NCBI RefSeq assembly: GCF_001517625.2
Contig: NZ_LN999828.1
Location: forward strand, 388,303 to 452,302
Source of the DNA: Clostridium sp. AT4
GTDB taxonomy: Bacteria; Bacillota; Clostridia; Lachnospirales; Lachnospiraceae
Reading direction: 5' to 3'
Length of the DNA: 64,000 nucleotides
The translations under genes and the position numbers were made by a program. Below the pieces are notes generated by a model. It had not been told where the DNA came from, searched no databases, and was given only the letters and a program-made list of their open reading frames with translations. Below, in pieces: positions 9,668 to 62,584 of the stretch (the stretch's first letter is position 1; every line of letters begins with the position of its first letter).

Positions 9668-10465
9668 ATGCCAACCGATTTTTTTGGCCGTGTGATGGCT
9701 GTGTTCAGCCGTTACGGCGTATCCATGCTTCAGGGCGCAGGCGTCAGCTTACAGATTGCCTTGGTGGGAACCATTGCAGGCTGTGTCATTGGCTTTGCAG
9801 TGGGCATTGTCCAGACCATACCCTCAGAAAAGGGAGATAATCCGATCAAACGGGGAATCCTGTGGATCGTGAAGCTTATTTTAAATATATATGTGGAGTT
9901 TTTCAGAGGTACTCCCATGATGGCTCAGGCCATGTTTATTTACTATGGACTGATGCCCCTGTTAAATATCAACAGCTCTATTTTAAATGCCGCTTATTTT
10001 ATCCTTTCCATTAACACCGGAGCATATATGGCGGAGACTGTCCGCGGAGGTATCCTTTCGATTGATAAGGGACAGACCGAGGGAGCCATGTCCATCGGAA
10101 TGACCCATGTGCAGACTATGCTGTATGTGATCCTGCCTCAGGCGCTGAGAAACCTGATGCCCCAGATTGGAAATAACCTGATCATCAATATCAAGGACAG
10201 CTGCGTTCTTTCCGTGATCGGTGTAGCAGAGCTGCTTTATAAGACAAAGGCCGCAGCAGGTGCGCTGTATATGAACTTTGAAACGTACACCATTACTATG
10301 GTTATGTACTTTATCATGACCTTTGCATGCTCCCGTCTGCTGCGCCTGTGGGAAAAGAAGATGGACGGCGCAGACAACTTTGATCTGGCAACAACGGATA
10401 CGCTGGCATATACCAGCGGTATGTACCGTTATCCCGACGACAGAGATAAAAAGGAGGGGGTATAA
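9668..10465 (+). CDS. Polar amino-acid ABC transporter permease (HisM/GlnP type)
   Basis: A 265-residue inner-membrane subunit. Seen: first helix within [19 protein letters not shown], the family hallmark [11 protein letters not shown], and an EAA loop ([21 protein letters not shown]) that docks on the ATPase. About five membrane helices are apparent, and the C-terminal tail of about 30 residues is hydrophilic. It forms, probably as a homodimer since no second permease is present, the channel for the amino acid bound by the upstream lipoprotein. Its stop shares one base with the ATPase start (TAATG). Confidence 0.93.
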
Positions 10466-11217
10466 TGAGCGAGAAGATACTTGAAATCCGCCATTTAAGC
10501 AAGACCTTCGGCACGAATCTGGTCTTAAAGGATATTGATTTTACCGTCAATAAAGGCGATGTAACCTGTATTATCGGAGCCTCCGGTTCCGGAAAATCCA
10601 CCCTCTTGCGGTGTCTGAACCTTCTTGAAACGCCAACCACGGGAGAGATTCTGTACCATGGAAATAACATTGCAGACCCAAAGGTAAATGCAGCCAAATA
10701 CAGATCAAGAGTGGGAATGGTATTTCAGAGCTTTAACCTGTTTAACAACATGACAGTTCTGGAAAACTGCGTGGTAGGACAGGTAAAGGTACTGAAAAAG
10801 GATAAGGAAACCGCCAGAAAGAATGCTCTTTCCTATCTGGAAAAGGTTGGAATGGCTCCCTATATTAATGCAAAGCCAAAGCAGCTGTCCGGCGGACAGA
10901 AGCAGAGAGTCGCCATTGCCAGAGCGCTGGCTATGGAGCCGGAACTTCTGCTGTTTGATGAGCCCACCTCAGCTCTGGATCCGCAGATGGTAGGAGAGGT
11001 TTTGGAGGTTATGAGAAAGCTGGCCTCTGAGGGACTGACTATGATCATCGTGACCCATGAGATGGCCTTTGCAAGAGATGTTTCCAGCCAGGTCGTATTT
11101 ATGGCGGGAGGCGTAATCGTGGAGGAAGGCGAACCGGCCCAGATTTTCGGAGCTCCGAAGGAGCATCAGACGAAAGAGTTTCTGGGGCGGTTTATGCATG
11201 AGAGAGCCGCTTTATAA
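10465..11217 (+). CDS. Polar amino-acid ABC transporter ATP-binding protein (GlnQ type)
   Basis: A 250-residue ATPase that powers the amino-acid importer from the cytoplasmic side. Seen: Walker [10 protein letters not shown] (about residue 38), Q-loop in [18 protein letters not shown], signature [16 protein letters not shown], Walker [14 protein letters not shown] and the switch histidine in [10 protein letters not shown]. Full length and canonical. It is the last gene of the operon; a strong terminator follows 15 bp after the stop. Confidence 0.95.
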
Positions 11218-27144: not shown

Positions 27145-28773
27145 TTATTCCTCCAAAATGGTGTGGGTGTTTGGTTCGTTCATATGAGCCTGGACAAACT
27201 CTCTGGGAGAGATTCCTTCTACCTTTTTAAATACCTTGCTAAAGTAAAAGGCGCTTTCAAAGCCGAGGCGGTCAGCCACCTCATAGATCTTTAAATCCTG
27301 TTCTAAAAGCAGGGGTTTGGCCCGGGAGATCTTGCGCTGGGTGATATATTCGGAAAAACCCATGGAGCAGGTCTTTTTGAAAAGAGTGCTCAGGTAATTA
27401 GGACTCAGCCCAAAGACCGCGGCGATTTCATTAAGAGAAAGATGCTCCTCAATGTGGTTTAAAATATATTTCTGCACATTTAAGATCACATGGTCTTTAT
27501 AGGTCTTTCGGCGGGTTTTTAACGCTTCGCAGAGTCCATCTCTGAGCTGCTCTAACCACCGGACAATCTGGAACACATCCTTCATCCGGTAAATAGAGCG
27601 GTAGCCGTCAGGACTGGCAGAAAAGATGCCGCTTAGTATTTCCTCACCTTCCGGAAGAAGAGAGAGAGCCAGATATAAAATGCTGCAGGCTCCGTCCATA
27701 GTCTGGAGCAGCTTTTGAGGATTCGCTGCAAAGAGCTGAGAGATCACGGTCAGGGTGTCATACAGGGCGTCTGTATCAAACTCTTCAAAGGCCCTGGTCA
27801 GATCTTCTTTAAAAACAGCCAGATTAAAGGAATCTCTTATGGAAGAAGAGGCAGTCTGGGTAAAAGGTACAAATGGGGCGTCAGGAGAGCAGAGATTAAA
27901 GGCCTGTCTGGCCTCCTGATAAGAAATGCTGATCTTTAAGGGATCATCCACCGGTTCTCCGATCCCGGCGCTTAGTTCAACATTAAAATAATTACGGATC
28001 ATGGAACGGCCGTTATTGAGCGCTTCCAGCACGGTTTCCATTTCCGGCTGTTCATCGGGGAAATGAAAGATCAGGGCAAAACGTGTTTTATCCAGGGCGA
28101 TCGCATAACAGCCCGCATATTTTGTAAGGATTTCCCGCATCATCTGCAGGCTGCTGGAATAAAGGTTTATCTGGCCTTCCGGATCCAGAGACTCGGAAAC
28201 ACAGCTTAGCAGCTCGCCGTGACAGGCCAGATACTGTCTGGCAGAAAAATCCAGTCCCAGATCCCTGGACTGAATGGAAAACTGATCCCTGTTTTCAAAA
28301 AGGTTATGAAGAAGACGCATGAAAAATTTATCATGGTAGCTTAAAAGAGTAGGGCGCCCCTGATTTTGACGGAAGGATTCCTTGGCTTTGAGCTCCTCCA
28401 GACGTTCGGATGCCTTTTCAATGGACGATTTAAGCGATCCGGGATCCAGCTCCAGCTTGATCAGATAGTCGACTGCCTGATAGCTCATAGCTTCTTTGAT
28501 CAAAGAAAATTCTTCAAAGCTTGTAAGGATGATGAATAGAGGGATGGGGCCAAACTCATCTCTGCATATTTTGACCAGCTCCAGTCCGTTCATAACAGGC
28601 ATTTTGATATCGGTAATCACGATATCAGGCCGGTACTGCCGGATCATTTCCAGAGCGGCTTTTCCGTTCATGGCAGTGCCGCAGACCTCTATGCCAAGCT
28701 CATCCCAGCGGAGCATGGATTTTATTCCGATCTGAACCAGAGGTTCATCGTCAACAATCAGTAATTTTATCAT
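27145..28773 (-). CDS. Response regulator, YesN/AraC type
   Basis: A 542-residue two-component regulator. Seen: receiver domain (about 1-120) with the acidic pocket IVDDEP and phospho-acceptor Asp55 in VITDIKMP; a long middle region (~150-430) with limited similarity; and two AraC-type helix-turn-helix motifs at the end (~440-542) with SLNEIAAVFGLSPNYLSTLF and GISPREFVQAH. The start at 28773 overlaps the kinase stop as ATGA and has GGGAGA upstream; the longer in-frame ATG at 28821 would lie deep in the kinase gene. It likely activates the flanking lyase, transporter and glycosidase genes in response to an extracellular sugar. Confidence 0.92.
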   Translation of the reverse strand: MIKLLIVDDEPLVQIGIKSMLRWDELGIEVCGTAMNGKAALEMIRQYRPDIVITDIKMPVMNGLELVKICRDEFGPIPLFIILTSFEEFSLIKEAMSYQAVDYLIKLELDPGSLKSSIEKASERLEELKAKESFRQNQGRPTLLSYHDKFFMRLLHNLFENRDQFSIQSRDLGLDFSARQYLACHGELLSCVSESLDPEGQINLYSSSLQMMREILTKYAGCYAIALDKTRFALIFHFPDEQPEMETVLEALNNGRSMIRNYFNVELSAGIGEPVDDPLKISISYQEARQAFNLCSPDAPFVPFTQTASSSIRDSFNLAVFKEDLTRAFEEFDTDALYDTLTVISQLFAANPQKLLQTMDGACSILYLALSLLPEGEEILSGIFSASPDGYRSIYRMKDVFQIVRWLEQLRDGLCEALKTRRKTYKDHVILNVQKYILNHIEEHLSLNEIAAVFGLSPNYLSTLFKKTCSMGFSEYITQRKISRAKPLLLEQDLKIYEVADRLGFESAFYFSKVFKKVEGISPREFVQAHMNEPNTHTILEE

Positions 28774-30629
28774 AATATCTCTCCCTGTGCCGTTTCGTAT
28801 GGCAGCGTAATATGCATACATGTGTATTCTCCCGGTACGCTTTCAATGGAAATACCGTATTCCGGGCCGCAGTCGTAGCGGATCCGCTGGTTTACATTGT
28901 TGATTCCCACCTGCCGGAAAAAGTCCGCAGTGGGCTTTTGGGTGCCGGAAAGAACTCGTTTTATGGTTTCCGCATCCATGCCGATCCCGTTATCCCATAC
29001 CGATATGATCAGACGGGGCTGTCTGGCAGCTTCTCTGTCCAGATTAGCGCTGATGCGGATTTTTCCTGCACAGCCCTTTGGTTCAATTCCGTGGAAAAGA
29101 GCATTTTCTATGAGAGGCTGCAAGGTAAAACGGTGGATCAGGCAGTCATAGAGGGCTTCTTCCGAAATTTCACATTCCAGAGAGATACTGCCGCCGTAAC
29201 GGTACTGCTGGATCAGAAAATAGTCCTTCACCAGATTCAGCTCTTCCCTCAAGGTAATCCTATTATGGGAACCCTTGGAAATGCTTTTTAATAGCCGGGC
29301 CAGAGCCGTAGTCATCTCGCTGATACCGGATGCGCCCTGGATGGTAGCCATCCATTTGATGGAGTTTAATGTATTGTAAAGAAAATGGGGGTTAATCTGG
29401 CTTTGAAGAATCCGGTATTCCAGATCCTTGCGTTCCTTTTCGTCCTGTATCCGCTTCTGGATCAGAGCAGCCAGATCCTGTGACATACGGTTGATACCGG
29501 TACCAATGGCTCCAAATTCATCCTCCCGCTGTATGGAGGGATCCAGAGAAAAATCGCCTCCAGCAATGGCCTGGATCCGATGCTGCAGTTTTTTTACAGG
29601 ACGTCCGATGGAACGGTTTAACAGTACAAAAAGCAAGAGACCGATGAAAAGGATGAAGACAGCAATACCGGAAAGAATGACCGCATAAAGGGTGCTCTGA
29701 GCCTTCATAGCGCTCTGGGATAAAAGCAGAGAGATGCTCCAGCCATAATTTCCAATGGGGCAGGAGAGCAGTACGCGTTCGGATCCATCCGGAAGACGGC
29801 AGAGCGAAACGAAGGTATCACTGTTAAAGGCATTTTCACTTAAGTCCTTTACCGGCTCAAATTTCCAGTCACAGGACTTTAAACGGTCATTTTCATAAAG
29901 CCAGGTTCTGCCTCCGATGGTAAGGCAGAGAAATGAATCCGGATTTAAGGGGAAAGATTTTAAGTAGTCAAGGATCAGCCGGTCTGAGATCGACATATAG
30001 ATCCAGCCGGCCTGATGGGAGCTGTAGCGTCCGGACAAGGCGGAGACAGCTGGAAGGACCATTAAACCGCTTCCGGGAAGAAATGGATCCTCCATAAAGG
30101 TGCTGTTGTCCATCCCATCTTCTGAAAGGATGGTCTGAAACCAGTCCGTGCCTGTAAGGTCAGATAAAGAATGTGCGGAAGACACAGCGGTGGTATCAGA
30201 AATCTGCATATAATTGCAGCTGTTTAAGGGAGATATGATAACCCGGTTTATGTAGGAGGAAGAATGAGTATTGTAATACTCTTCCTTCAGACGGTCATAG
30301 GTACGAAGTGCCACACTGCGTAGGCCGGAATTTTTGGAAGAGATCGAGGGCATCTGGGACAGATTTTCAAAACCGTCCAGATAGGCGGCGATATCTGTGT
30401 TAAAGGAGCACCATTTATAAAAGGAAAGGATATTTTCCAAATCGGCCGCTGTACTGTTACAGATAACCTCAAGACTGTATTCGGAAGTCTGTATCTGATT
30501 TTTCTGGAGAAAGGACTGAAAAACAAAGGAACAGATGGTTACCGTAAATACAGCAATGGAGCAGGTTACGGCAGCCGTATAGAGTATGATTTTTCCGCGT
30601 ATGGTTTTTGGAAATACGGATTGCAGCAT
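28770..30629 (-). CDS. Sensor histidine kinase, YesM type
   Basis: A 619-residue membrane sensor. Seen: first membrane helix (about 14-38), an extracellular sensing domain (~40-300), second helix (~305-330), a HAMP segment (~330-385), the HisKA-like block ILQSQINPHFLYNTLNSIKWM with the phosphorylatable His, and an ATPase domain with LIENALFHGIEP and VWDNGIGMD. This is the family that partners YesN-like regulators and senses extracellular carbohydrates or their binding proteins. ATG at 30629 with GGGGGGA nine bases upstream. A consensus promoter is found at 30698-30670. The sugar transporter it probably controls is transcribed divergently. Confidence 0.93.
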   Translation of the reverse strand: MLQSVFPKTIRGKIILYTAAVTCSIAVFTVTICSFVFQSFLQKNQIQTSEYSLEVICNSTAADLENILSFYKWCSFNTDIAAYLDGFENLSQMPSISSKNSGLRSVALRTYDRLKEEYYNTHSSSYINRVIISPLNSCNYMQISDTTAVSSAHSLSDLTGTDWFQTILSEDGMDNSTFMEDPFLPGSGLMVLPAVSALSGRYSSHQAGWIYMSISDRLILDYLKSFPLNPDSFLCLTIGGRTWLYENDRLKSCDWKFEPVKDLSENAFNSDTFVSLCRLPDGSERVLLSCPIGNYGWSISLLLSQSAMKAQSTLYAVILSGIAVFILFIGLLLFVLLNRSIGRPVKKLQHRIQAIAGGDFSLDPSIQREDEFGAIGTGINRMSQDLAALIQKRIQDEKERKDLEYRILQSQINPHFLYNTLNSIKWMATIQGASGISEMTTALARLLKSISKGSHNRITLREELNLVKDYFLIQQYRYGGSISLECEISEEALYDCLIHRFTLQPLIENALFHGIEPKGCAGKIRISANLDREAARQPRLIISVWDNGIGMDAETIKRVLSGTQKPTADFFRQVGINNVNQRIRYDCGPEYGISIESVPGEYTCMHITLPYETAQGEIL

Positions 30630-57669: not shown

Positions 57670-58638
57670 ATGGAGAGAATCCGAAAAAACAGAAGAAACA
57701 TTTCCGGGGCAGCGGTTCTGACAGCCGCTGTGGTAGGTGTCTGTGGCCTTTTTGGAGCATTTCCGGCAAAAGCGTCTCAGACAGCAGTGATCGAGGATAC
57801 ACAGGTGCCGCTGTATGATAAGCCTGCCGGAAGCTATGTGCGTACTCCCATTGCTTCCGGTGTGACGGTATATAAAAATGATAAGGCCACTCTGGATGTG
57901 TCCAATACATCTGAGGGCTATCTAATGGTGAAATATACCGGCAGTGTAGGAAAAATTAAGGTTCAGATTTCCAAAAACGGTTCAGAAACATATACATATG
58001 ATTTAAATAACAGCGGTGTTTATGAAGTTTTTCCTCTTTCGGAGGGAAACGGCTCCTATCAGGTAAAGGTGTTTGAAAATATTCAGGGGAATCAGTATTC
58101 CCAGGCCTTCAGCCAGAATCTGGACGTATCCATTTCCAATCCCTTCGGTCCTTTTTTGTATCCCAACCAGTATGTGAATTTTAATTCTGCCAGTGCGGCA
58201 GTTCAAAAGGGAGCAGAGCTTTCGGCAGGCGTTACAGATCAGCTTGGCGTGGTATCGGCTGTTTACAACTATGTGGTTAAGAATCTGACTTATGATACGG
58301 CAAAGGCCAGTTCCGTACAGTCCGGCTATCTTCCCAATGTGGATCTGGTGCTGGCCCAGAAAAAAGGGATCTGCTTTGACTATGCGGCTCTTATGACGGC
58401 CATGCTCCGTTCTCAGGACATTCCCACCAAGCTGGTGGTGGGATATACAGGAAACCTGTATCACGCCTGGATCAATGTATATCTGGAAGGCCAGGGCTGG
58501 GTGGACAATATCATTTATTTTGACGGAACCAGCTGGAAATTGATGGATCCGACCTTTGCATCCTCCGGCAACCAGAGCCAGGAGATTATGCAGTATATAG
58601 GAAACGGAGCCAATTACCAGGCGAAATACAGCTATTAG
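57670..58638 (+). CDS. Exported transglutaminase-like protein
   Basis: A 322-residue protein. Seen: basic N-terminus and hydrophobic signal (about 1-37, ending FPAKA SQ), a beta-rich region (~40-180) rich in Asn/Thr/Tyr, then a transglutaminase/protease core (~195-310) with Cys in KKGICFDYAALMTAML, His in LYHAWINVYLEGQGW and Asp in WKLMDPTF, i.e. an intact Cys-His-Asp triad. In bacteria such domains act as peptidases, crosslinkers or pilus/cell-wall modifying enzymes. It immediately precedes the GspF gene (17-bp gap), so it is likely a working part of the pilus-like system. Substrate unknown. Confidence 0.88.
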   Translation: MERIRKNRRNISGAAVLTAAVVGVCGLFGAFPAKASQTAVIEDTQVPLYDKPAGSYVRTPIASGVTVYKNDKATLDVSNTSEGYLMVKYTGSVGKIKVQISKNGSETYTYDLNNSGVYEVFPLSEGNGSYQVKVFENIQGNQYSQAFSQNLDVSISNPFGPFLYPNQYVNFNSASAAVQKGAELSAGVTDQLGVVSAVYNYVVKNLTYDTAKASSVQSGYLPNVDLVLAQKKGICFDYAALMTAMLRSQDIPTKLVVGYTGNLYHAWINVYLEGQGWVDNIIYFDGTSWKLMDPTFASSGNQSQEIMQYIGNGANYQAKYSY

Positions 58639-58655
58639 TCAGGAGGACAGAGAAA

Positions 58656-59714
58656 ATGGAAAAACAGGGGGAGAAATACGATCGGTATTCCTATGAGGAG
58701 CTGTCCGCCTTCTGCTTACAGATTGCCCTTTTGCTGGAGGCGGCTGTGCCTTTGGAGGAAGGGCTGACGATCATGGCAGAGGATGCGGCAGAGGAAAAAG
58801 AAAAGGCCATGCTTCTTTATATGGCAGAGGGCGCAGAACTTGGAGATCCTTTCTTTAAGGTGCTGGAGGATACAGGCGTGTTTCCCCCCTATATCGTCCG
58901 TATGGCCAGACTGGGGCAGCAGACAGGTACGCTGGATCAGATGATGAAATCCCTTTCTGATTATTATGAGAAAGAAGCCAGGCTTTTAAAGGCGGTAAAA
59001 AATGCGGCCACTTATCCCGCAATGATGATTCTCATGCTGTTAGTGGTTCTATTCGTGCTTTTTACAAAGGTAATGCCGGTGTTTTCAAGGGTATATGAGC
59101 AGCTGGGAGCCAGCCTTCCGCCTGCGGCTGCAGCAGCAATCCGTCTGGGAGGCATTTTAAGCGGCGCAGCATTGGTTCTGGCAGCTGTAACTGGTGCAAC
59201 TGCGGCCGTGATATGGATTGCTGCCCGTTTCGGAAAGCGTTTTTCACTGGTGGAAAAGGGCGTCGCAGCAGTAAAAAACCGCAGCCGTATTGCCAGAGCA
59301 GTTGCGCTGCGCCGCTTTACCTCTGTGCTGGCTCTGACCTTAAAGAGCGGGCTGGAACTGGAAAAGAGTATGGAATTAGCCAAAGAGCTGGCTGAAAATG
59401 AAACAGTGGCCGGTCAGATCGATGACTGCTCCAGACGTTTGGAAGAGGGAGAAAGCTACTATGACGCCATGAAGGCAGCAGGGCTTTTTTCCGGTTTTTA
59501 TATTCAGATGATTAAGGTGGGAAGCCGCAGCGGCCATCTGGATCAGGTAATGGAGGAAATTTCCGGGGATTATGAGGAAATGGCGGATTCTGCCATTGAC
59601 GGAATGATCGCCCGGTTTGAGCCTACGATCGTAGCTGTGCTGGCTGTATCAGTGGGACTGGTGCTGCTTTCCGTGATGCTGCCTCTGGTAGGCGTGCTTT
59701 CTGCAATCGGTTAG
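58656..59714 (+). CDS. Type II secretion/type IV pilus platform protein (GspF/PilC)
   Basis: A 352-residue inner-membrane platform protein. Seen: two repeated T2SSF domains (about 13-135 and 220-340), each with LxxGxxLExxxxxxAE-type helices and a GQQTGTLDQMM / GSRSGHLDQVM signature, and three membrane helices (about 118-140, 165-190, 325-350). In pilus and secretion machines it couples the cytoplasmic ATPase to pilin insertion or removal. It is shorter than Gram-negative PilC (~400 aa). AGGAGG precedes the ATG. Followed by four small single-helix proteins and a PilT-like ATPase. Confidence 0.93.
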   Translation: MEKQGEKYDRYSYEELSAFCLQIALLLEAAVPLEEGLTIMAEDAAEEKEKAMLLYMAEGAELGDPFFKVLEDTGVFPPYIVRMARLGQQTGTLDQMMKSLSDYYEKEARLLKAVKNAATYPAMMILMLLVVLFVLFTKVMPVFSRVYEQLGASLPPAAAAAIRLGGILSGAALVLAAVTGATAAVIWIAARFGKRFSLVEKGVAAVKNRSRIARAVALRRFTSVLALTLKSGLELEKSMELAKELAENETVAGQIDDCSRRLEEGESYYDAMKAAGLFSGFYIQMIKVGSRSGHLDQVMEEISGDYEEMADSAIDGMIARFEPTIVAVLAVSVGLVLLSVMLPLVGVLSAIG

Positions 59715-59726
59715 GAGGAGCTGGAT

Positions 59727-60059
59727 ATGAGAGTAAAACGCGGGCAGGACCGAAGAGGACGGGGTCTTGCGGGCATGATCGGCTCGATGCTCCTTATGAT
59801 GGCAGCAATCCTGTTTCTTACCCTGTTCTCTGTACAGTTTGGAGAGAGGACCACAGCCGGAGATCAGGAAACCCTGAAAAAGGCCATAGCAAGAGCAAGC
59901 GTGCAGTGCTATGCCATTGAGGGGAGATATCCGCCAAGTATCGAGTATCTGGAGGAGCATTACGGGGTAATGATCAACCGGAAAAAATACAATGTGTTTT
60001 ATGATGGCTTTGCCTCCAATGTGATGCCGGATATCACAGTAGTGCCTGTTATGGAATAG
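59727..60059 (+). CDS. Small single-helix protein, pilin-like (pilus operon gene 1)
   Basis: A 110-residue protein without a family I can name. A basic N-terminus (RVKRGQDRRGRG) is followed by a hydrophobic helix (about 14-35, LAGMIGSMLLMMAAILFLTLF) and a small soluble domain containing CYAIEGRYPPSIEYLEEHYG. The GRYPPS-type segment resembles the region after the helix in GspG-type pseudopilins. There is no Glu at +5 after the Gly where prepilin peptidase would cut. The start follows AGGAGG overlapping the gspF stop. Likely a pseudopilin or assembly partner. Confidence 0.75.
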   Translation: MRVKRGQDRRGRGLAGMIGSMLLMMAAILFLTLFSVQFGERTTAGDQETLKKAIARASVQCYAIEGRYPPSIEYLEEHYGVMINRKKYNVFYDGFASNVMPDITVVPVME

Positions 60060-60070
60060 GAGGGAAACGT

Positions 60071-60601
60071 ATGGAGCGGAAAACGGGGAAAAGAGGCCAG
60101 CTGATGGGCGGCCTTTTTACCATGCTGCTGTTTCTGGTATTTATTTTAAGCGCTCTTTTTACCGTTCTGACAGGAAGTCGCGTGTATGAAAATATCACTG
60201 CCAGAAGCGATAAAAATTTCAGCAGCTCCACTGCCTTAAGCTATATAGCAAATAAGGTGCGTCAGGGAGACCGTGCCGGGATGACAGACATAAAAGAAAT
60301 AGAAGGAACACAGGTACTGGAGCTTCGCCAGCAGATTGGCGGGACAGATTATGTGACCTGGATTTACTGGCTGGACGGCAGTATCAGGGAGCTTTTTACT
60401 GATACCGGCAGCGGCCTTGGACTGGAGGATGGTCTGGAAATTTTGGAATGTGAAGGACTGTCTTTTTCCAGAGAGGGAAATGTTCTCCATATCCGTACGG
60501 AAGGGGAGAACGGGGGAACTCTGTCTCTTTCTCTTAGAAGCGGCAGTCTGGCTGAAAATCCTGTTTTTGGTGAGTCGGAAAGCGGGGGGATAGAAGGATG
60601 A
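60071..60601 (+). CDS. DUF4860-like single-helix protein (pilus operon gene 2)
   Basis: A 176-residue protein: basic start (ERKTGKRGQ), one hydrophobic helix (about 10-33), then a soluble domain (~40-160) of short strands (GTQVLELRQQIGGTDYVTWIYW). It resembles DUF4860 proteins found beside GspF/PilT genes in clostridia (recalled, not searched). The RGQLMGGLF segment looks like a degenerate prepilin cleavage region lacking the +5 Glu. Eleven bp after gene 1; its stop overlaps gene 3 as ATGA. Confidence 0.75.
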   Translation: MERKTGKRGQLMGGLFTMLLFLVFILSALFTVLTGSRVYENITARSDKNFSSSTALSYIANKVRQGDRAGMTDIKEIEGTQVLELRQQIGGTDYVTWIYWLDGSIRELFTDTGSGLGLEDGLEILECEGLSFSREGNVLHIRTEGENGGTLSLSLRSGSLAENPVFGESESGGIEG

Positions 60602-61008
60602 ACAGAAGAAGCGGGTCCGGTTCAGAACCGTTTTTGATGGAGATGCTGGCAGTCGTCGGTTTTTTTATTGTCTGTGCCTCCATCTGTGTTTCCGTATTTG
60701 CAGGAGCAGACCGGTTGAGCCGGAAGGCAGATGATCTGAATCATGCTGTGCTTGCGGCCCAGAGCCTGATGGAAGAGCTGAAATCCGGGAAACGAGAGGA
60801 AGAGCTTCAGACGGTCTGGGATAAGGACTGGAAGGCATATACGCAAAGGGAGGCGGCAGAGTCAGGAGCTGTTTTGGCCTATGAGGCAGAGATCACAGTA
60901 GAAATGGATGATTCTATGAAGCAGATCCGGGTGGATGTGACAAAAGGGGATAAAGAAACAGACGGTACTGTGATCTACAGCCTGGAAGGCAGCCAGTATG
61001 AGCCTTGA
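60598..61008 (+). CDS. Single-helix pilin-like protein (pilus operon gene 3)
   Basis: A 136-residue protein: short polar N-terminus (MNRRSGSGSE), then PFLMEMLAVVGFFIVCASIC, a hydrophobic helix that carries a Glu five residues in, as in type IV pilins, but with Glu instead of Gly before the would-be cleavage point. The rest (~40-136) is an alpha-beta soluble domain with a long first helix (LSRKADDLNHAVLAAQSLMEEL) as in GspI/PilV-like minor pilins. Start overlaps the previous stop by 4 bp. It is the best pseudopilin candidate in the set. Confidence 0.78.
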   Translation: MNRRSGSGSEPFLMEMLAVVGFFIVCASICVSVFAGADRLSRKADDLNHAVLAAQSLMEELKSGKREEELQTVWDKDWKAYTQREAAESGAVLAYEAEITVEMDDSMKQIRVDVTKGDKETDGTVIYSLEGSQYEP

Positions 61009-61033
61009 AAAAAGAAGCGGGAGGAAATAAGCC

Positions 61034-61507
61034 ATGGCGGAACAAACATCCAGAAATAAAGTGAATATAGGGCTGTCATCGCTGATCCTGATCTTTATCG
61101 TGCTTTGTCTGTCTACCTTCGGCCTTCTTTCTTTAAGCAGTGCCAGAGGCGATCTGGAGCTGGCAGAGAGGGGCGCTCAGGCTGCAAAGGAATTTTATGA
61201 AGCAGATTCCAAAGGACAGCAGTGGCTGGCTGGATCAGACCGGATGCTGCAGCAGATGGCAGGGCGGTCTTTAGAGGAAAAGTTGGAGGCTCTGGCGGCC
61301 AAGCCGGGAAATGGTTATGATGAGCAGACCGGCCTTATTTTTACAGAAATTCCCATGGAGCGGGGACAGTCCCTGCACATTGATCTGGAGTTAAAAGAGG
61401 GGGACAAACGGTATGAGATCCGGTCCTGGTATGTATATGACAGCGGTGAATATGAAATTGATGATACAGTGAAGGTCTGGGACGGCAAAGATCGTTCGGG
61501 TACATAA
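61034..61507 (+). CDS. Single-helix protein (pilus operon gene 4)
   Basis: A 157-residue protein of no recognised family: polar N-terminus, one hydrophobic helix (about 12-35, IGLSSLILIFIVLCLSTFGL), a helical region (LELAERGAQAAKEFYEADSK) and a beta-rich C-terminus (IPMERGQSLHIDLELKEG). The layout helix-then-AEKGAxxAKxxYxAD recalls GspK/PilX-like minor pseudopilins. GAGGAAATAAGCC precedes the ATG. Fifteen bp ahead of the PilT-like gene. Confidence 0.73.
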   Translation: MAEQTSRNKVNIGLSSLILIFIVLCLSTFGLLSLSSARGDLELAERGAQAAKEFYEADSKGQQWLAGSDRMLQQMAGRSLEEKLEALAAKPGNGYDEQTGLIFTEIPMERGQSLHIDLELKEGDKRYEIRSWYVYDSGEYEIDDTVKVWDGKDRSGT

Positions 61508-61522
61508 TAAGGAGGAAACGAT

Positions 61523-62584
61523 ATGAAGGTAATGGAGCTTCTTACAGCGGCAGTGGAGCAGGAGGCAGCTGATATCTTTTTGATACCGGGCCGTCCTTTT
61601 TCCTATAAGATTGGCGGCAGGATCATCTGCGAGGGAACAGAGAAGATCATGCCGGATGAAATGGACGATATGATCCGTCAGATCTATGAGCTGGCCGGCG
61701 GCCGGAGCGAAGAACGTGTATTGAATGAGGGAGATGATGATTTTTCCTTTGCTGTACCGGGGGTATCGCGTTTCCGCGCCAATATTTTCCGTCAGAGAGG
61801 TTCTCTGGCCGGCGTTATCCGTGTTGTGCGATTTGAGCTTCCGGATGCGGATGCGCTGCATCTTCCAAAGGAGATTATGGATGTTTCAAGGATGACGAAG
61901 GGAATGGTGCTGGTTACAGGGCCGGCGGGAAGCGGCAAAAGCACCACTCTGGCCTGTATCATTGACGCCATTAACGAGTCAAGAGAAGCACATGTGATTA
62001 CCCTGGAAGATCCCATTGAGTATCTTCACCGCCACAAAAAGAGCGTAGTAACGCAGCGAGAGATCGCTACAGATACAAGCAGCTATGTAACCGGCCTGAG
62101 AGCTTCTCTGCGTCAGGCTCCGGATGTGATCCTGCTGGGAGAAATGCGTGACTATGAGACTATCAGCATCGCAATGACGGCTGCAGAGACAGGCCATCTG
62201 ATCTTGTCTACCCTTCATACCATCGGCGCGGCCAATACCATTGACCGTGTCATTGACGCTTTTCCTCCGGCTCAGCAGCAGCAGATCCGCGCCCAGCTTT
62301 CCATGGTTTTAAATGCGGTCATTTCCCAGCAGCTGGTACCTACTGTAGATGGAGGCGTACAGCCTGTTTTTGAGATCATGTTTTTAAATAATGCGATCCG
62401 CAATATGATCCGCGAATCCAAAATCCATCAGATTGACGGCATTATCGCCACTTCTCAGGAGGAGGGAATGATTTCCATGGACAACAGCCTGATCCGCCTG
62501 TTCCGCCAGGGAGTTATAAGCAGGGAAACGGCTGTGACCTACAGCAGCAACGGAGAACTAATGGAACGAAAGCTGTCCAGATAA
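61523..62584 (+). CDS. pilT: PilT-like twitching/retraction ATPase
   Basis: A 353-residue hexameric secretion ATPase. Seen: N-terminal PAS-like domain (about 1-100), Walker A GPAGSGKST (~132), Asp box VITLEDPIEYLH, Walker B VILLGEMRD, His box GHLILSTLHTIGA, and the PilT-specific AIRNMIRESKIHQI near residue 290 with the C-terminal MDNSLIRLFRQGVIS. This AIRNLIRE-type motif marks PilT (filament retraction) and not PilB/GspE (extension). No PilB is in the window. It is the last gene of the operon; a terminator follows. Confidence 0.94.
   Translation: MKVMELLTAAVEQEAADIFLIPGRPFSYKIGGRIICEGTEKIMPDEMDDMIRQIYELAGGRSEERVLNEGDDDFSFAVPGVSRFRANIFRQRGSLAGVIRVVRFELPDADALHLPKEIMDVSRMTKGMVLVTGPAGSGKSTTLACIIDAINESREAHVITLEDPIEYLHRHKKSVVTQREIATDTSSYVTGLRASLRQAPDVILLGEMRDYETISIAMTAAETGHLILSTLHTIGAANTIDRVIDAFPPAQQQQIRAQLSMVLNAVISQQLVPTVDGGVQPVFEIMFLNNAIRNMIRESKIHQIDGIIATSQEEGMISMDNSLIRLFRQGVISRETAVTYSSNGELMERKLSR

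Follow-up and report, generated by a model that had tools for sequence, protein, structure and literature searches.

PilT is known as the antagonist of PilB, and the ComG operon combines one ATPase, one GspF-type protein and several pilin-like genes. According to passages of PMC6668835, PilT is often lost, as in the type II secretion system (T2SS) and ComM, and a part of PMC10191384 likewise describes the T2SS as having lost it. Here we describe a seven-gene operon with the opposite loss, in which PilT is kept and the extension motor is gone. The operon lies on the plus strand at positions 57670-62584 of a stretch of 64,000 nucleotides from Clostridium sp. AT4 (Lachnospiraceae; contig NZ_LN999828.1, positions 388,303 to 452,302), the whole of which we call the window, and encodes in order a transglutaminase-fold protein (TGase), a GspF/PilC-type platform protein (GspF), four small proteins (p3, p4, p5 and p6) and a PilT-family ATPase. 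The intergenic distances are 17, 12, 11, −4, 25 and 15 bp from TGase-GspF to p6-PilT, which bears out the original prediction, a model's reading of the window, of seven genes with gaps of 25 bp or less. Among open PMC papers we found no description of such an operon, none naming DUF4860, the family of p4, and none combining transglutaminase, PilT, pilin and Clostridia.

Results

Families were assigned to the operon proteins with Pfam and NCBIfam models at their own cut-offs, which named TGase, GspF, p4 and PilT, while p3, p5 and p6 had no match above cut-off. The ATPase (61523..62584, +) scored 403.7 bits against the PilT model TIGR01420 (cut-off 319.1), 138 bits against the ComGA model (cut-off 300) and 41.4 bits against the TadA-family model (cut-off 373), and its nearest solved chains are PilTs (1e-94). 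It has the His box and, as predicted, the motif AIRNMIRE (residues 291-298), which is of the AIRNLIRE type of the PilT/PilU family, and tree placement agrees with this assignment. Walker A Lys139, Glu162, Walker B Glu207, His232 and Arg297 were kept in 40 of 40 operon PilTs, of which 39 formed one clade (support 98/98) beside the pilus PilTs, with L180 unplaced and a long-branch warning for L190, L193, L176, L191 and L172. The strict pattern AIRN[LMQ], found in 28 of 40 operon PilTs and in just one of 12 pilus PilTs, was rejected as a marker of the retraction class. PADLOC matched PilT weakly (best 9.3e-7) and gave zero families for the other six proteins.

When the open reading frames (ORFs) of 13 type IV pilus and T2SS loci were compared with the window by phmmer, no PilB or GspE, PilM, PilN, PilO, secretin or peptidase was found there, as had been predicted. 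The only matches were GspF, PilT, a weak one to TGase (3.1e-6) and two far-upstream ORFs (10465-11217 and 27145-28821). The search was extended to the source genome (3.41 Mb, 97.2% complete), in which all 58 candidates were scored and T2SSE matches over the Pfam cut-off were limited to the operon PilT and two ATPases at C6:536981 and C7:70052. The Tad-like label that we give these two loci comes from their neighbours (a T2SSF protein and an A24 peptidase at each) and not from Tad (tight adherence) models. The T2SSF matches of the genome were the operon GspF and one per Tad-like locus, one of these below cut-off, and its two A24 peptidases were those of the same two loci. There was no PilB (TIGR02538 at E 1e-50), no match to PF06750, the N-terminal domain of PilD-type peptidases, and no GspE among the T2SSE matches; a secretin was sought, and not found, within the window only. 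Apart from those of the two Tad-like loci, the operon PilT is thus the only T2SSE ATPase of the genome over cut-off. The proposed search for PilB and PilD therefore found neither in the assembled genome, and the claim that a PilT-type ATPase is the only cognate motor held; of the alternative raised with it, an extension ATPase shared from another locus, the part concerning PilB fell for the genome as assembled, and a Tad-like ATPase could still be the shared one.

To place the operon in its family, we used DUF4860 as its marker in 200 Lachnospiraceae genomes, with PilT at E 1e-70 and PilB as in the source genome. DUF4860 was present in 73 genomes, and all 73 had PilT. Of the 73, 32 had PilB, as did 58 of the 127 genomes lacking DUF4860 (Fisher p 0.88), so the operon and PilB occur independently, and PilB was not found in 41 of the 73 operon genomes. 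Among the 110 genomes without PilB, PilT was present in 41/41 with the operon vs 6/69 without it (p 4e-24, genomes treated as independent). For 35 of the 41 PilB-less operon genomes, DUF4860 had a T2SSE match less than 4 kb away, while in G023, G028, G032, G065, G174 and G186 a six-gene operon lacks PilT and a PilT is encoded elsewhere. These six stray PilTs (L149, L151, L153, L155, L159 and L161) group among the pilus PilTs in the tree; their neighbours, named by reading and with Pfam applied to the L151 genes only, are lepA- and hemW-like at all six, yifB- and dprA-like at five of the six, and topA-like and HD-type at four each. Because the six operons without PilT occur in genomes with a pilus-clade PilT, a pilus PilT can apparently stand in for that of the operon.

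An A24 peptidase was present in 40 of the 41 PilB-less operon genomes, and also in 20 of 20 checked family genomes with neither DUF4860 nor PilB; its co-occurrence was accordingly dropped as proof of dependence on a Tad peptidase. ATPase matches of ~300 residues in the PilB-less genomes G046, G117, G131, G164 and G194 might be PilB or ComGA; the two examined (L157 and L158) look like split TadA. In both, a TadZ-like gene (by reading) is followed by a shortened TadA-like ATPase of 289-303 residues, apparently a split tadA.

Outside the family, a set of 398 genomes from the phylum yielded 13 with DUF4860 (12 above cut-off), drawn from nine families, and PilT stood beside it in 10 of 11 such genomes. 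In four of these 11 (G401, G411, G504 and G589) the operon PilT was the only T2SSE ATPase over cut-off, so that a shared Tad-like ATPase failed as an explanation there, and an A24 peptidase had no match in G401 and G504, which belong to one genus, or in G589. The PilT-type ATPase is thus the only predicted motor that is co-conserved with the operon. The exception among the 11 is G486, whose available 12-kb region (L178, G486:C2:65500-77500) has no PilT or TGase around its GspF and p3-p6 and is either a motorless form or a remnant.

The four small proteins have features of pilins. p4 (60071..60601, +) matched PF16152/DUF4860 with 103.4 bits (cut-off 25), and the models of p4 and p6 (predicted local distance difference test, pLDDT, 89 and 91) have a long N-terminal helix followed by beta-strands, which is the build of pilins. 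Among the 50 fold matches listed for p4, the one of highest probability (0.91; E 0.34, rank 19) was chain 5g24_B, TTHA1219 of Thermus, which its authors placed with GspJ in the part of PMC5131608 that deals with it; p4 is thus possibly GspJ-like. p5 (60598..61008, +) is a putative GspI-like pilin relative by its match to XpsI (2.9e-4, below cut-off). p3 (59727..60059, +) lacks a prepilin site and is treated as a ComGC-like pilin relative after the p3 of L180, which matched the ComGC model at positions 8-80 of 84 (6.6e-4, below cut-off), and p6 (61034..61507, +) may be GspK-like by its position and pattern. Profile searches of the four proteins against PDB sequences gave no significant pilin match, with weak pilin matches for p5 (7tgg 0.16, 8qqj 0.6) and an unrelated chain as the best for p4 (0.021), and the p3 of the window and of L167 had no pilin family match.

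Two distant operons link these proteins to ordinary prepilins. That of Acetoanaerobium noterae (L167), in the order GspF-p3-p4-p5-p6-PilT-TGase, has a p5 above the PF07963 and TIGR02532 cut-offs and a p4 with a Gly-x4-Glu site. That of G388 (L180), in the order PilT-GspF-p3-p4-p5-p6-peptidase-TGase, has canonical prepilin sites in p4 and p5, with p5 above and p4 below the same two cut-offs, and its peptidase gene between p6 and TGase encodes PF06750 and PF01478. By family match and site, the distant relatives of p4 and p5 are predicted to be ordinary prepilins, and the two operons probably represent the older state.

In most other loci the prepilin site has changed. It is absent from p3 (G/A-x4-E in 0 of 126) and from the p4 of the window; a G or A at −1 together with Glu at position 5 (E5) occurs in 1 of 126 p4 sequences, that of L180, although this pattern misses the charged site of the L167 p4. 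An HMM of p5 found it in 129 of 129 loci having any p gene, a set that includes duplicates such as the window itself (L033). E5 was present in 125 of these; of the four exceptions, L014, L057 and L118 seem to be misassigned or truncated ORFs, and L187 differs. In an alignment this Glu (numbered E15 there) was invariant, in 46 of 46 sequences. At −1, where the window has Glu and not Gly, the 125 loci have S in 62, G in 23, R and A in 7 each, N in 6, T in 4, H and Y in 3 each, and K, E, V, F and P in 2 each, the Pro including G401 and G504. According to the part of PMC4471445 concerned with pilin processing, cleavage depends absolutely on Gly at −1 and can proceed without Glu5, which homopolymer assembly needs. 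Since the E5 of p5 is kept while the −1 residue drifts, assembly without cutting would fit. p6 has an invariant Gly (Gly13) and no E5 in 49 of 49 sequences, for which the capping subunit of the tip complex, as treated in a part of PMC10191384, offers a comparison, and its leader has on average 3.1 Lys/Arg and 0.7 Asp/Glu. Taken together, p3-p6 look like pilin relatives that lost processing in the lineage of the window; their earlier description as four small N-anchored proteins was right about the single-helix build and left out this likeness to pilins.

TGase (57670..58638, +) matched PF01841 with 78.1 bits (cut-off 23; 7.6e-22), and its nearest solved chain is 3isr (3.1e-5). Its N-terminus resembles an export signal, as judged by reading the sequence. 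Because all 87 aligned sequences keep the triad columns Cys, His and Asp (Cys235, His265 and Asp293 in the window) and 35 of the 87 have a lipobox-like pattern, the enzyme probably acts outside the membrane. Its N-terminal domain shares ~60 residues with a canonical pilin of a type IV pilus locus (L171:564-1172), a likeness that is weak (8e-7 pairwise, 2.4e-4 by HMM), was seen in one genome and was not used. GspF (58656..59714, +) matched PF00482 with 170.8 bits (cut-off 25.2; 1.5e-50) and positions 59-399 of 401 of TIGR02120, below cut-off, its N-terminal part being missing.

A search of genome contigs by similarity to PilT gave 583 loci, of which the best 80 were kept. By phmmer, p6 was present in 80, p3 and p4 in 77 each, GspF in 76 and TGase in 72, and the misses of GspF, p3 and p4 and seven of the eight of TGase are loci whose available DNA ends there; several loci missed p5 by this method. 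The record titles of the 80 name Lachnospiraceae, Oscillospiraceae, Acetobacterium, Anaerovorax, Caproiciproducens, Massilimicrobiota and others, so the proposed comparison of GspF, PilT and DUF4860 synteny showed a gene set that recurs beyond Lachnospiraceae, and the operon is, on this evidence, widespread and not local, with carriers among many relatives of Clostridium from gut and soil. Lacrimispora xylanisolvens (L045) is one culturable carrier. Gene order is nearly constant, with TGase between p6 and PilT in L083, L085 and L087, PilT first in L103 and L115, and TGase on the opposite strand in L114. The ratio of non-synonymous to synonymous substitution rates (dN/dS) against a same-genus relative (L024) was 0.04-0.21 for six operon genes, with TGase not covered and PilT compared over 147 codons only; L041 was dropped as a reference because dS was saturated or not computable for several genes. 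These comparisons indicate that the operon is conserved and under purifying selection. A GspF search of plasmids returned 15 records, none covering 80% of the query, and led to the A. noterae operon. That record, NZ_CP154629.1, is 2.63 Mb long, is filed as a plasmid, holds a PilB-PilT pilus locus as well as the operon and looks like a chromosome.

The operon begins 23 bp downstream of rlmB and ends 78 bp upstream of ldh. A plus-strand consensus scan between rlmB and TGase gave no terminator-like site, in agreement with the prediction, and the predicted joining to ispF-cysS-mrnC-rlmB (names by reading) was seen in 8 of 97 loci whose context was examined (mrnC in 7). Within 2.5 kb of the operon, 15 of 97 loci have a relative of a GGDEF protein, 19 one of an extracytoplasmic function (ECF) sigma factor, 13 one of a BTAD regulator and 5 one of a sortase; in L152, L154, L156, L162 and others, genes for a GGDEF protein, an ECF sigma factor and a protein of ~168 residues without a Pfam match lie upstream of TGase. 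The presence of these genes suggests that the operon may be under cyclic di-GMP and envelope-signal control in some lineages.

Discussion

The operon would belong to the type IV filament superfamily by its GspF-type platform, its ATPase of the PilB/PilT/TadA family and its relatives of prepilin-type proteins, the prepilin site itself being present in L167 and L180 and absent from the window. We propose that in the lineage of the window the pilin-like proteins stay uncut, with short cytoplasmic tails holding them in the membrane, and that p3-p6 assemble via the helix carrying the E5 of p5 into a short complex, not a long filament, which would resemble the GspI-J-K initiation (tip) complex of pili. 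A PilT hexamer would dock under GspF and turn or pull this complex in ATP-driven strokes. That uncut p3-p6 form such an I-J-K-like complex, moved by PilT through GspF, is the account we favor and regard as reasonably probable. Two further steps are weaker: the outward face of the complex may work with the exported TGase on a target in the cell-wall zone, and the system may be tied to cyclic di-GMP and ECF-sigma regulation in some lineages. That the PilT-driven motion serves TGase or a cell wall target seems to us doubtful. The joint claim is tentative, and we would place it slightly short of an even chance: a pilus that lost PilB, peptidase and filament would have given rise to a widespread monoderm machine, fixed in the envelope, whose PilT makes a never-cut pseudopilin complex reciprocate or rotate and which is coupled to an extracytoplasmic TGase-fold enzyme.

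Several observations weigh against this reading. Support for p3 as a pilin comes from the single sub-cut-off match in L180; the fold searches of p4 and p6 gave no match at E 0.001 or better, unrelated proteins ranked by E-value above the pilin TTHA1219 for p4, and there was no informative match for p6. The His-box His225 was kept in only 35 of 40 operon PilTs. Cutting by a Tad or PilD peptidase in some species would be allowed by the −1 residue of p5, which is G or A in 30 of 125 loci, and by the invariant Gly of p6, and the Tad-like loci of the source genome could lend the operon a peptidase or an ATPase. Six genomes (G006, G016, G122, G145, G185 and G197) have PilT with neither PilB nor a DUF4860 match. 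The link to TGase rests on co-location, and L089 has no TGase in the available DNA at its locus. Because G486 (1.8 Mb; DUF4860 below cut-off) retains GspF and p3-p6 yet has neither a T2SSE ATPase nor an A24 match, the motor is not universal in the operon.

Alternatively, the operon could supply minor pilins and retraction to an ordinary type IV pilus that has its PilB, PilD and major pilin encoded elsewhere. PilB is indeed present in 32 of the 73 operon genomes, including G102 of the same genus, A. noterae also has a PilB-like match, and a pilus-clade PilT seems to serve the operon in six genomes. The original prediction had held that constant co-occurrence of PilB, peptidase and a major pilin would make this an ordinary pilus, and they do not always co-occur: 41 operon genomes, the source genome among them, have no PilB match, PilB is distributed independently of the operon (p 0.88), and the operon PilTs form their own clade beside the pilus PilTs. 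Barring a PilB in the 3% that the assembly lacks, this explanation is refuted for the source genome (and likewise for 40 others), and overall we consider it very unlikely. A decaying remnant of a pilus locus would account for the missing PilB, peptidase and prepilin sites and for G486, which is without motor and TGase, but is at odds with the low dN/dS of six genes, with Walker A Lys, Walker B Glu and other residues kept in 40 of 40 PilTs, with the triad in 87 of 87 TGases and with the same gene set across many families; we give it almost no credence.

The two main remaining alternatives assume a short pseudopilus. The operon might borrow the Tad ATPase and prepilin peptidase of the same cell, as the two Tad-like loci of the source genome, the A24 peptidase in 40 of 41 PilB-less operon genomes and the invariant p6 Gly would allow. 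The A24 count is uninformative given the 20 of 20 control genomes, however, and G401, G504 and G589 have neither another T2SSE ATPase over cut-off nor an A24 match, while PilT is present in every operon genome of the family sample; we judge such borrowing improbable. PilT might also be a two-way motor that both builds and dismantles a true short pseudopilus, as in the mannose-sensitive haemagglutinin (MSHA) pili of Vibrio, whose extension and retraction both need PilT in the account given in part of PMC9815625. Single two-way motors exist in Tad systems according to a passage of PMC11300603, and the E5 of p5 is kept. MSHA-type pili nevertheless have a separate extension motor (same part of PMC9815625), and the loss of the −1 Gly, absolutely critical for processing in the cited portion of PMC4471445, speaks against polymerisation, so that a two-way PilT is also an unlikely explanation. 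The uncut complex moved by PilT remains the reading we prefer.

A conserved system with PilT only would offer a way to test what the PilT hexamer and GspF do by themselves when no extension motor, and perhaps no cleaved pilin, is present, and its one motor, one platform and four pilin-like subunits would be a natural minimal set for reconstitution. It would also illustrate how a filament machine loses processing, and would point to a function worth seeking in the common Lachnospiraceae of the gut.

By gene content, the operon appears to lack the defining features of the type IVa pilus, the T2SS, the Com pilus and the Tad pilus, and it resembles each in part. Like the type IVa pilus it has PilT, PilC/GspF and pilin-like proteins, but the window is without PilB, PilM, PilN, PilO, PilD and a major prepilin, and PilB was not found in 41 of 73 operon genomes. 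With the Tad (type IVc) pilus it shares a single-motor plan known in monoderms, and two Tad-like loci lie in the same genome; Tad has TadA and paired TadB/TadC, whereas the ATPase and platform of the operon score with PilT and GspF models. MSHA loci are comparable in lacking their own prepilin peptidase (a passage of PMC6668835) and in a PilT active both ways (PMC9815625, in part), although the MSHA pilus is an extended one that has both a major pilin and its extension ATPase. The Com pilus is similar as a small monoderm operon in which a single ATPase gene and a single GspF gene of ComGB-like length stand together with several pilin-like genes; it differs in that the motor here is PilT-type and not ComGA, the window has no prepilin sites and no peptidase, TGase is present, and a ComGC match is limited to the L180 p3, below cut-off. 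The T2SS pseudopilus (GspF-G-H-I-J-K) is similar in that four pilin-like genes come after GspF, the loci of E. coli and Pantoea being examples, and in the GspJ-like pilin that was the highest-probability fold match of p4 among the 50 listed; GspE, a secretin and GspL, GspM and GspO are absent from the window, and PilT is present instead. If our reading is right, the operon is the reverse of the T2SS and Com pili, where the extension ATPase stayed and PilT went.

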